Below, piece by piece: positions 6,001 through 8,315 of a stretch of DNA of 64,000 nucleotides. Under the pieces are notes generated by a model. That model was not told the DNA's origin, searched no databases, and saw nothing but the letters and a program-made list of their open reading frames with translations. Position 1 is the stretch's first letter. The number at the start of each line of letters is the position of its first letter. The stretch covers positions 4,087,101 to 4,151,100 of the forward strand of contig NZ_CP036455.1 of NCBI RefSeq assembly GCF_004323735.1, in the 5' to 3' direction. This stretch comes from Streptomonospora litoralis. GTDB lineage: Bacteria > Actinomycetota > Actinomycetes > Streptosporangiales > Streptosporangiaceae. Position numbers and translations under genes: made by a program.

Positions 6001-8315
6001 TCGCCGAAGGTGATGGAGATGTCCATCGCCGTGATGACCAACTCGGTCAGTTTCGCAAAAGCGTCGATATCGAAAGTGTCGTCACTACGAAGGAATTTGA
6101 GCAGATTAATTGATGCTAGGTTGCACGAAGAATCATCAAGTGAGAGGTATTCACTGCACGGGTTGCTTGCACTAATTCGTCCGGTTTCGGGGTTTGTGTG
6201 CCAGTCGTTGATGGTGTCGTCGTACTGCACGCCCGGGTCGGCGCACTCCCAGGCGGCGCGGGCCATCTTGCCGAACAGCTCCTCGGCGTCGACGGTGGCC
6301 ACGACCTCGCCGGTGGTGCGCGAGGTCAGCCCGAACTCCGAGCCGGATTCGACGGCGCGCATGAAGGCGTCGGAGACCCGGACGGAGTTGTTCGCGTTCT
6401 GGTACTGCACGCTGAACATGTCGTCGCCGCCCAGGTCGACGTCGAACCCGGCGTCGCGCAGGGCACGGATCTTGTGCTCTTCACGCGCCTTGGTCTCGAT
6501 GAACTCCTCGACGTCGGGGTGGTCGACGTCGAGCACGACCATTTTGGCGGCGCGGCGGGTCGCACCGCCCGATTTGATGGTGCCCGCCGAAGCGTCGGCG
6601 CCGCGCATGAACGACACCGGCCCCGAGGCGGTGCCGCCGGAGGTGAGCAGTTCCTGGCTGGACCGGATGCGGGAGAGGTTCACCCCGGCACCGGAGCCGC
6701 CCTTGAAGATGATCCCCTCTTCCTTGTACCAGTCGAGGATCGACTCCATGGTGTCGTCCACGGAGAGGATGAAGCAGTTGTGGACCCGGAGGTTGTCCGA
6801 GAGATACTCGCCGCTTTCGGTCTGGATGTCGTAGACCTCCATGGCGCCGACATTCTCGACCGCAGCGATCTCCAGACGCTTGATCGGGTGGGCCGCAAGG
6901 CCCGGAACGTCCAGGCTCGCCTCCAGCTTGTCCGCCTCGGCGGCATCGATGAACCCGATCTCAGCGGCGAACGCGGCACGCTCCCCGGCACCTTGAATGC
7001 CCAGGCTCCAGAGGTCGTTGCGGTCGGGACGGCGCTCGGCCTTACGCGCCACGCGCGCGAAGATGCCGTAGCGCAGCAGCAGGCGCTGCACACCCCGGAC
7101 AAGCTCCTCGGAGATCATATCCATGCCGATACGCACGGAGCGCTCTCGCTTCGAAACGTAGCCTTCGGCCTGGAAGATGCTCCGCAGGTAGGCGGTGACC
7201 ACCGGAAGGGGCGCGGTGAACAGGTGCTCGGGTACCCGCATGTCGACGCCTCGGGTGCGCAGGTCCCACTTGGCGACGAAGTCCGCCAGACCGCTCCCGT
7301 ACAGGCGGGTGCGCCGGCAGTCCAGGGAGGTGTCCTGAGTCTCCACGCGCCGCTCGTGACGGTGGACGTCGGGGAAGACCCGGTCGAGGGCTCCCGTCAC
7401 CCAGTCCAGTTCCTCCTCGGTGACCGTCATCGCCTCGATGGTCAGGGAGCGGTTGGTTCCCTCACCGTACTGCCCGACGAAGCCGTCTGACTGCAGCCAG
7501 CCGGCCAGAGCCGCCTCGGCGATCTCGGCGGGGTCGATCTCCGATTCGCCATAGGCGTCTCGCCGGTGCCACTGGAGCTTGTCGCCGACCGCCAGCTCAC
7601 CCGCGGTGACGAATTTTCCGGTGTGATCGCCGGTTGCCTTCCACACCAGGTGATCGGCCGTCACGTCCAGCGTGTAGCCCGCCTTGGTGTGCAAGCGCAG
7701 AACGTCCTTGACGCCGTTGGCCTTGGTCGCCAGGACTCGGGTGAGACCGTGCGCGTCATAGACCTTGGTCCCCACCGCGTCAGACTCGACGAGTTCACCG
7801 ATGGGAACGAGCCCTTGCGGTGTGCTCACTCGCGCGCTGTAGGGCTGGCAGGCGCTGACCTGCTGCTTTGACGCGGTGCCGACGTTGAACCACACCGGGG
7901 AGTTGAAGCTGAAGAGCTGGTTCACGAGGGCGTGCTTGAGCTCGTGGTCGAAGATCTCGGCGTCTTCGTCGGTGGCGAAGTAGCCGCTGGCGCGTCCGGT
8001 TTCGGTGTATGTGCCGGCGACCCGGTCGACGAGCTGTTTGAGGCTCCACTCGCGCTCGGGGGTGCCTTGGGCGCCGCGGAAGTACTTGCTGGCGACGATC
8101 TGGGTGGCGTTCATGGTCCAAGCGGCGGGGAACTCCACGCCGCGCTGCTCGAAGTTGACCGAGCCGTCGCGCCAGTTGGTCATGACGACGTCGCGGCGCT
8201 CCCATTCGACCGCGTCGTAGGGGTGCACACCGGGCTTGGTGAAGACGCGCTCCATCTTCAGACCCTTGCGGCGGTCCTTCCCCTTGCGCTGTGCTCCGCT
8301 TGCGGTCTCCGTCAT
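3099..8315 (-). CDS. nrdJ: Vitamin B12-dependent (class II) ribonucleotide reductase with two inteins
   Basis: Reduces ribonucleotides to deoxyribonucleotides using adenosylcobalamin, so it works with or without oxygen. The 1738-residue precursor holds two in-frame inteins (residues 156-513 and 907-1336); splicing leaves about 950 residues, the normal actinobacterial length. Catalytic landmarks of the mature enzyme are present: the reductant Cys in CFILSVDD (residue 514, directly after intein 1), the thiyl-radical Cys720 in NPCSEY, the APTG...TIGFMMDCDTTG motif split by intein 2, and a C-terminal Cys-rich tail (CVTCG, CYVCEGC, SGCS) for re-reduction. The NPCSEY region (about 6045-6190) has AT-rich synonymous codons unlike the rest. 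nrdR lies 96 bp upstream, presumably in the same transcript, which starts at NrdR-controlled promoter elements near 9145-9173. Confidence 0.97.
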   Translation of the reverse strand: MTETASGAQRKGKDRRKGLKMERVFTKPGVHPYDAVEWERRDVVMTNWRDGSVNFEQRGVEFPAAWTMNATQIVASKYFRGAQGTPEREWSLKQLVDRVAGTYTETGRASGYFATDEDAEIFDHELKHALVNQLFSFNSPVWFNVGTASKQQVSACQPYSARVSTPQGLVPIGELVESDAVGTKVYDAHGLTRVLATKANGVKDVLRLHTKAGYTLDVTADHLVWKATGDHTGKFVTAGELAVGDKLQWHRRDAYGESEIDPAEIAEAALAGWLQSDGFVGQYGEGTNRSLTIEAMTVTEEELDWVTGALDRVFPDVHRHERRVETQDTSLDCRRTRLYGSGLADFVAKWDLRTRGVDMRVPEHLFTAPLPVVTAYLRSIFQAEGYVSKRERSVRIGMDMISEELVRGVQRLLLRYGIFARVARKAERRPDRNDLWSLGIQGAGERAAFAAEIGFIDAAEADKLEASLDVPGLAAHPIKRLEIAAVENVGAMEVYDIQTESGEYLSDNLRVHNCFILSVDDTMESILDWYKEEGIIFKGGSGAGVNLSRIRSSQELLTSGGTASGPVSFMRGADASAGTIKSGGATRRAAKMVVLDVDHPDVEEFIETKAREEHKIRALRDAGFDVDLGGDDMFSVQYQNANNSVRVSDAFMRAVESGSEFGLTSRTTGEVVATVDAEELFGKMARAAWECADPGVQYDDTINDWHTNPETGRISASNPCSEYLSLDDSSCNLASINLLKFLRSDDTFDIDAFAKLTELVITAMDISITFGDFPTEKIGETTRAFRQLGIGYANLGALLMATGHAYDSDGGRAVAAAITSLMTGTAYKRSAELAGVVGPYDGYAKNADAHKRVMRKHAAANDDLRTVGAMDRAISAAATATWQQCLKTGEKHGWRNAQASLLAPTGCLTGDSLVTTDRGLVRISELGDVYGPRWQELSTEVATDEGPRQATRFFVNGEEPTRRIVTAGGYRIQGTYAHRIKVVDPETGAWEWKRFADITPDDVVPVQMGTLVGETRRVVLPVLEQAYYAGDRNVVVPDAVDEELAELVGYFMGDGSLHAKGLRFCVADTDTEVVERLRILAKGLFNLVPDVTQMEGYQEVALSSVRLARWWKAAGFAKDLPGQNHTGKGWTPHVPSAILEANDPSVYAAFLRGLFEADGTVLEGVPSLSTAHESFAGEVRTLLLTLGMATTTRGTRSGYGGDCHIVRLRNVDHALRFDELVGFMGDRKNRLMVALEPERSARGDRIMLPREVWDELVPVGHRDRGTVVQSLRTSGGVARQLAERIHTETMDERLGHALGYIFERVADNQDGGVQPTYDISVPDNVTYVANGLVSHNTIGFMMDCDTTGIEPDFSLVKYKKLVGGGSMQIVNQAIPRALTNLGYPQEQVEAIVEYISENGHVVDAPGLRPEHYEVFDCAMGRRYIKPMGHVEMMGAVQPFLSGAISKTVNVPEEATVEDFEHIYFQGWKLGLKALAVYRDNCKVGQPLSTASTESAEKDEDKARPEPEVIEVNRPVRRRLPKKRPSETVSFSVGGAEGYITAGSYPDDGLGEVFMKLGKQGSTLAGVMDAFSIAISIALQYGVPLETYVDKFTNMRFDPAGMTDDPDIRMAQSVVDYIFRRLALDHLPYEERADLGVLSAEERRAQANGEDPAQVAAQVESYAQSAPLTPAESAAEEGAERSEGSGGEKRGDAHSTTELVERSQGFVADAPLCVTCGTKMRPSGSCYVCEGCGSTSGCS
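4308..5597 (-). other. Intein 2 of NrdJ (LAGLIDADG type), residues 907-1336
   Basis: A 430-residue in-frame insertion between G906 and T1337, inside the conserved LAPTG/TIGFMMDCDTTG motif. It begins with Cys907 (CLTGDSLVTT, splicing block A), has the block B motif TYAH (975-978), two LAGLIDADG-like motifs (LVGYFMGDGSLH, 1047-1058, and LRGLFEADGTV) and ends with YVANGLVSHN followed by Thr as the +1 nucleophile. Both dodecapeptide acidic residues (Asp in GDG, Asp in ADG) are kept, so the homing endonuclease may be active. The borders are inferred from known extein sequence. Confidence 0.93.
6777..7850 (-). other. Intein 1 of NrdJ (LAGLIDADG type), residues 156-513
   Basis: A 358-residue in-frame insertion between Ala155 and Cys514. 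It starts with Cys156 (CQPYSARVSTPQG), has a TADH block B motif (219-222), a first dodecapeptide LAGWLQSDGFVG (270-281) and a second, LRSIFQAEGYV, in which the usual Asp is Glu, and ends YLSDNLRVHN before Cys514. The +1 residue is itself the catalytic Cys of the reductase, so the enzyme cannot work before splicing. The Asp-to-Glu change may lower endonuclease activity without affecting splicing. Confidence 0.93.

Follow-up and report, generated by a model that had tools for sequence, protein, structure and literature searches.

The nrdJ gene of Streptomonospora litoralis encodes a class II ribonucleotide reductase and lies in a 64,000-nucleotide stretch of contig NZ_CP036455.1 (positions 4,087,101 to 4,151,100), referred to here as the window. 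The gene contains a short, AT-rich and locally foreign tract that surrounds an intein insertion point, vacant in this gene and occupied in relatives. We consider this tract to be probably a gene-conversion footprint of homing at the vacant site. The presence of two inteins elsewhere in the gene, reported in an earlier note made from the sequence alone, was confirmed (Table 1); both have LAGLIDADG domains, and Pfam matches in the nrdJ product comprise Ribonuc_red_lgC, Ribonuc_red_2_N, TSCPD, LAGLIDADG_3 and Intein_splicing.

Table 1. Position of nrdJ and of the features discussed, in window coordinates; codons are numbered in mature NrdJ.
Feature	Position	Strand	Basis
nrdJ (class II ribonucleotide reductase; unspliced product of 1,738 aa, including two inteins)	3099-8315	minus	single open reading frame (ORF)
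AT-rich, locally foreign tract, codons 349-397	6051-6197	minus	codon list and breakpoint scan against five genus-mates
Patch core, codons 352-370, span of the AT-ended excess in the family	6132-6188	minus	codon-by-codon tally over the 62 genus representatives that lack a site-B intein
Vacant intein insertion point NP^CSEY (site B), between codons 361 and 362	6158/6159	minus	10 relatives with an intein here
Intein 1, 358 aa, site A (SA^CFILSV), GC-rich flanks	6777-7850	minus	
Intein 2, 430 aa, site C (APTG^TIGF), GC-rich flanks	4308-5597	minus	

The composition of the tract is unique within the window. The count of 56 G or C among the 130 bases at 6051-6180 (43.1%), given in the earlier note, is exact and represents the minimum over all 63,871 130-base windows of the 64 kb; 57 or fewer are reached nowhere else. 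The whole nrdJ ORF has a G+C content at third codon positions (GC3) of 0.895. One 45-codon stretch of the gene contains 26 AT-ended codons, whereas 5,000 shuffles of the AT- or GC-ended state within each amino acid never gave more than 17. Outside this stretch, even the 45-codon window poorest in GC-ended codons still has 34 of 45. The patch had been placed at 6045-6190; its AT-ended codons reach slightly further on one side, running from codon 707 of the window ORF (6197) to codon 755 (6053). A DNA search found the region once in its own genome. It includes C362 and C373, which we take to be the radical cysteine of NrdJ and its redox partner, respectively.

The tract is also foreign in sequence when compared with genus-mates. 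Identity to the closest of these is 92% upstream (codons 160-340), 71% in codons 349-397 and 90% downstream (codons 400-535), and the best match to codons 349-397 in the family set reaches 75%. A two-breakpoint scan against five genus-mates delimited the tract to codons 359-397 for the closest, 349-397 for three and 349-402 for one. Differing codons amount to 28 of 39 inside the tract versus 187 of 787 outside it (permutation p<=0.0005, for the closest genus-mate only). The protein had been described as intact, with only the codon choice foreign. While the ORF is indeed single and intact, 8 of the 49 tract residues differ from the closest genus-mate, with positions 350, 353, 366, 367, 370, 386, 394 and 396 unlike all five. 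More specifically, the tract encodes LSLDD where all five genus-mates have VHLDN, and serine 363 is AGT versus TCC or TCG in all five, a multi-base change. A tree of the remaining nrdJ sequence, from which rows with many gaps were left out, places the window gene within its genus, whereas trees of the tract place it elsewhere; at codon positions 1+2, the tract is 94% identical to the gene of another genus.

A search for inteins at the NPCSEY position, proposed in the earlier note, revealed them at the exact site. Inteins of 376-402 aa, with a GC content of 0.62-0.73, lie between NP and CSEY in ten relatives, five of which are among 67 genus representatives drawn without regard to the patch (one genome, G024, was omitted, as only a distant homologue was detected in it). 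Both LAGLIDADG acidic residues are kept in seven of the ten and one or both are lost in three, a mix of kept and decayed endonuclease motifs that would be expected from a homing cycle. Two of these inteins were tested and scored above the cut-off for LAGLIDADG_3 and below it for Intein_splicing. Among the 62 genus representatives without a site-B intein, an excess of AT-ended codons covers codons 352-370, with the exception of some codons, and thus about 30 bp on each side of the insertion point. Its centroid, for which all five representatives known to carry a site-B intein were excluded, falls at codon 360.5 (bootstrap 358.7-362.2), next to the insertion point at 361.5. Two marks of co-conversion are found together: relatives carry a homing element at the identical position, and the replaced exon adjoins the insertion point, with the tract 349-397 containing 361/362. 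The window allele itself has no intein at site B.

The NPCSEY motif is conserved and catalytic, so that its codons or its RNA could be constrained for reasons independent of inteins; low GC3 near codons 183 and 541 in an outgroup as well points in the same direction. This outgroup consists of 29 nrdJ genes from seven other families of the class, the best-scoring among 345 genomes with a match, 18 of the 29 coming from one genus. Such a constraint is nevertheless highly improbable as the origin of the patch. At site B, the outgroup genes have 42-45 of 44-45 codons GC-ended and show no dip, and the core is without any AT-ended codon in 33 of the 67 genus representatives. The earlier note had regarded transfer or intein loss as dispensable if all intein-free relatives shared the low GC3 and the patch grouped with the host genes. 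The low GC3 is not shared by all of them, and a universal codon constraint at the motif is contradicted by both the outgroup and the patch-free genes of the family. Of the two nucleotide-level causes that the note had raised, an endonuclease target may still apply, but RNA structure found no support: the folding z-score is -0.45, and Rfam holds no known RNA family that matches the patch. The low GC3 near codons 183-186, common to family and outgroup, was not counted as intein-specific; it belongs to a region of low GC3 at codons ~173-190 (GGSGAG) in which no intein was seen.

Patches of this kind cluster at intein sites throughout nrdJ. A shuffle-test scan of one gene per genus yielded a significant AT window in 13 of 67 genes, and in all 13 the window is no more than 20 codons away from an intein site, four such sites being seen in the family (codons 155, 361, 660 and, as entered in the scan, 546); 20% would be expected (binomial p 1e-9). 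Eleven of the windows are at vacant sites and one, in G034, is at an occupied site C; the last is at site D, for which occupancy was not scored. Without correction, 16 windows fell under 1e-4, one of them away from any intein site (G060, codon 277), and in the outgroup 1 of 29 genes was significant, also near site C. At p<0.01, vacant sites of the genus representatives are patched in 2/53 (A), 13/62 (B) and 9/61 (C) cases and occupied sites in 0/9, 1/5 and 1/4. In a larger set of 144 genes, patches were found at 8/119 (A), 34/134 (B) and 11/129 (C) vacant sites and at 0/15, 1/10 and 1/11 occupied sites, compared with 1/142, 0/144, 1/140 and 1/138 in four control windows. Duplicates, a truncated locus and a second copy of nrdJ were left out of both counts. 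The site-B rates in the 144-gene set are inflated because many loci were picked by DNA similarity to the patch, and the window's own occupied site C is missing from the counts, as the locus used held too little of the site. Furthermore, patches at separate vacant sites co-occur within genes (Fisher test, A-B 0.015, B-C 0.0011, A-C 0.0095).

The patches resemble one another in their codons. Where Ala358 is AT-ended, it is GCA in 25 of 25 genes from 17 of 17 genera, compared with a GCA:GCT ratio of 201:197 among the other AT-ended alanine codons of these genes, and Ser359 is AGT in 24 of the 25 (16 of 17 genera). Gly354 is less uniform across 15 genera, with GGA only in nine, GGT only in four and both in two. 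Synonymous differences that involve more than one base are enriched in patches (16/286 versus 11/622, p 0.0027). A core with at least 4 of 15 AT-ended codons occurs in 36 of 143 genes, a distribution that takes no fewer than 24 changes on the gene tree. This fits a shared AT-rich segment that moved between genera by local recombination with varying tract lengths; shared mutation or selection may also have been at work.

Under the explanation we favour, endonucleases of inteins circulating in the family would cut nrdJ at NP^C. A divergent nrdJ copy, free of the intein and with AT-rich codons, would then have served as template, either in mending this break or in replacing an allele that had previously held an intein. 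The exchange would cover about 150 bp at the cut and leave the site empty and the protein intact. Similar events seem to have been repeated in other genera and, less often, at the other nrdJ intein sites. We infer that endonuclease cutting caused the conversion, that the window lineage was either attacked or formerly carried an intein, and that the donor of the tract was AT-rich.

Several observations weigh against this homing footprint. For the tract, descent within its own genus withstands approximately unbiased (AU) tests (143 rows, p 0.977; 55 rows, p 0.276; codon positions 1+2, p 0.055). The patch may therefore group with the host genes, as in the second part of the condition set in the earlier note, although the tests are limited by the shortness of the tract. 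Patching does not differ significantly between occupied and vacant sites (2/36 versus 53/382, p 0.2), and the two occupied sites of the window gene are without an AT-rich or foreign flank. In the pooled per-site analysis, where the automatic "empty" label missed the site-B carriers G010 and G011, no AT excess was found at site D, and part of the excess at site C is also present in the outgroup and was therefore not taken as specific to inteins. As a test of patching at intein sites, recA gave no clear support either way: in 30 pooled genes, the two strongest dips coincide with its two intein sites (z 4.4 and 4.0), a third at codon 45 has no known site (z 3.8), and per gene 1/30 and 0/30 are patched at the intein sites versus 2/210 at seven control windows. 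Transitions dominate the differences in patches (203:48, versus 425:131 in the rest of the gene), and since the two shares are close, part of the patch may be ordinary mutation. A strongly AT-rich flank is missing in 8 of the 10 intein-bearing site-B alleles, which makes these eight poor donors for the patch.

The earlier note had suggested looking for low-GC nrdJ or phage sequences close to the patch; no donor of the tract was found in searches of phage, virus, plasmid and genome collections. Every phage record is below 60% protein identity, the best listed reaching 49%, a DNA search for a phage, virus or plasmid donor gave only chance-level matches (E 2 or more), and a scan of viruses confirmed no relative. 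The nearest entries in the plasmid collection are two replicons with 84% and 79% protein identity, which were not read. A degenerate pattern of the AT-type core, searched in the species genome collection, returned 12 loci, all titled actinobacteria; a donor just like the window tract might be missed by this pattern, because the window core does not match it exactly.

The transitions could alternatively be the product of repeated cutting and mutagenic repair, in which C to T changes on exposed single strands recoded the vacant site in place. Such a process would account for an AT excess centred on the cut point and for the 203 transitions among 251 single-base synonymous differences, but transitions are nearly as frequent elsewhere in the gene (425/556). 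It would also require a transversion at Ala358, where GCA stands against GCC in the nearest GC-type relative in 8 of 25 cases and GCT never appears. Together with the enrichment of multi-base synonymous switches and the eight residue changes in the window tract, this makes recoding in place very unlikely.

The earlier note had suggested a lost intein. In this reading, an AT-rich donor would have supplied both the intein and its flanks by co-conversion, and the window lineage would later have lost the intein precisely while keeping the flanks. The inteins of relatives at site B and the AT excess centred there agree with it, as do the AT-rich flanks of two intein-bearing alleles (G011, 27 of 46 codons GC-ended; G001, 37 of 46), and the loss of a cox1 intron with its co-conversion tract kept sets a precedent (PMC3192709, in the parts considered here). 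Its donor was not found in the collections searched, however, the GC content of the site-B inteins is unlike that of an AT-rich donor, and the window site B retains no intein remnant. Because most intein-bearing alleles have GC-rich flanks, loss with retained flanks fits less well than conversion, and we regard it as unlikely.

Selection for cleavage resistance is the main rival of the conversion footprint, or its partner, as both can act together. Here, AT-ended synonymous codons would block endonuclease cutting, and favoured immunity alleles would pass between genera by recombination. The target of a homing endonuclease is about as wide as the AT excess, roughly 30 bp either side of the insertion point. 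In the ten codons around site B, 0-2 are AT-ended in 10 of 10 occupied alleles versus 3-7 in 30 of 134 vacant ones. The closest genus-mate, L036 (G107), has no nrdJ intein and is patched near codons 155, 361 and 548 (p 8.5e-4, 2.2e-11 and 5.2e-5), and the nrdJ of L208 is likewise patched at all three intein sites, whereas the window gene has inteins with GC-rich flanks at A and C and its patch at the vacant B. Extended to the whole family, vacant intein sites would be shielded by synonymous AT-rich recoding and local gene conversion would have spread a shared resistant codon word from genus to genus. Each site of the gene would then be in one of three states: occupied by an intein between GC-rich flanks, empty with its GC-rich sequence untouched, or recoded and immune. 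This extended scheme is tentative, and resistance as the origin of the window patch is possible but rather doubtful. The contrast between occupied and vacant sites lacks significance for AT-ended codons (p 0.12) as it does for patching, the window tract of 147 bp exceeds the target width, and two occupied sites carry patches (L077 at B, L106 at C). Moreover, several differences in the target, most of them synonymous, did not keep the MCM endonucleases of haloarchaea from cutting it (PMC10643990, as far as the passages used describe it). Whether the AT-rich codons may also protect against cutting is the most interesting question raised by these sequences.

Among known systems, as described in the passages of the sources drawn on, the closest parallel is the group I intron in cox1 of flowering plants, which leaves co-conversion tracts and, in some losses, the tract without the intron (PMC3192709). 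As presumably in nrdJ, past homing shows there in third-position differences beside the insertion site, in tracts of variable length and also in element-free copies; nrdJ differs in having bacterial inteins rather than a plant mitochondrial group I intron, a two-sided tract, several sites per gene and codon composition as the mark (PMC3192709). With the WHO elements at FBA1 in yeast, nrdJ would share the exchange of part of an essential gene for a cutting-resistant version following endonuclease cutting, but WHO elements bring their own resistant gene end, and resistance was shown experimentally there, compared with sequence alone for nrdJ (PMC7282813). Haloarchaeal MCM inteins likewise occupy several sites per gene and home with co-conversion, and invasion-resistant alleles exist; their resistance, in contrast, stems from a splice-site proline, and mostly synonymous target differences did not prevent cutting (PMC10643990). 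The PRP8 intein cycle also combines full inteins and empty alleles among related species, but a composition scar at empty sites is not described in those passages (PMC1508164). The split intein NrdJ-1, with native junctions NPC and SEI, interrupts the same NrdJ motif one residue further on, while the site-B inteins at NP^CSEY are unsplit and have LAGLIDADG domains (PMC13123727).

Co-conversion tracts, empty alleles and endonuclease-resistant alleles have each been described (PMC3192709, PMC10643990, PMC7282813, PMC1508164, in the passages used). Synonymous composition scars at vacant intein sites did not appear among the titles and abstracts listed by searches of the open-licence full-text literature. 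An empty intein site usually tells nothing of its history. Should such sites be marked by composition scars, intein-free genes would allow attack, loss and resistance to be counted, and the evolution of synonymous resistance to homing endonucleases by the host would become directly testable.

Further insertions were observed in nrdJ and recA. A fourth large nrdJ insertion of ~1.3 kb is present near codon 660 in several uncultured lineages (L124, L085, L220, L223); located near the ISKT motif, it is probably an intein, although its protein was not read. The recA gene of the window genome (L185, contig C1 near 1,701,188-1,701,418) is interrupted by one intein at ESSGK^T and by another following GVMFG, which brings the inteins seen in this genome to four. 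Finally, the recA gene of L242 (G034) is without an intein at the RecA-b site and shows an AT-rich patch centred there (codons ~207-225), with another near codon 272.

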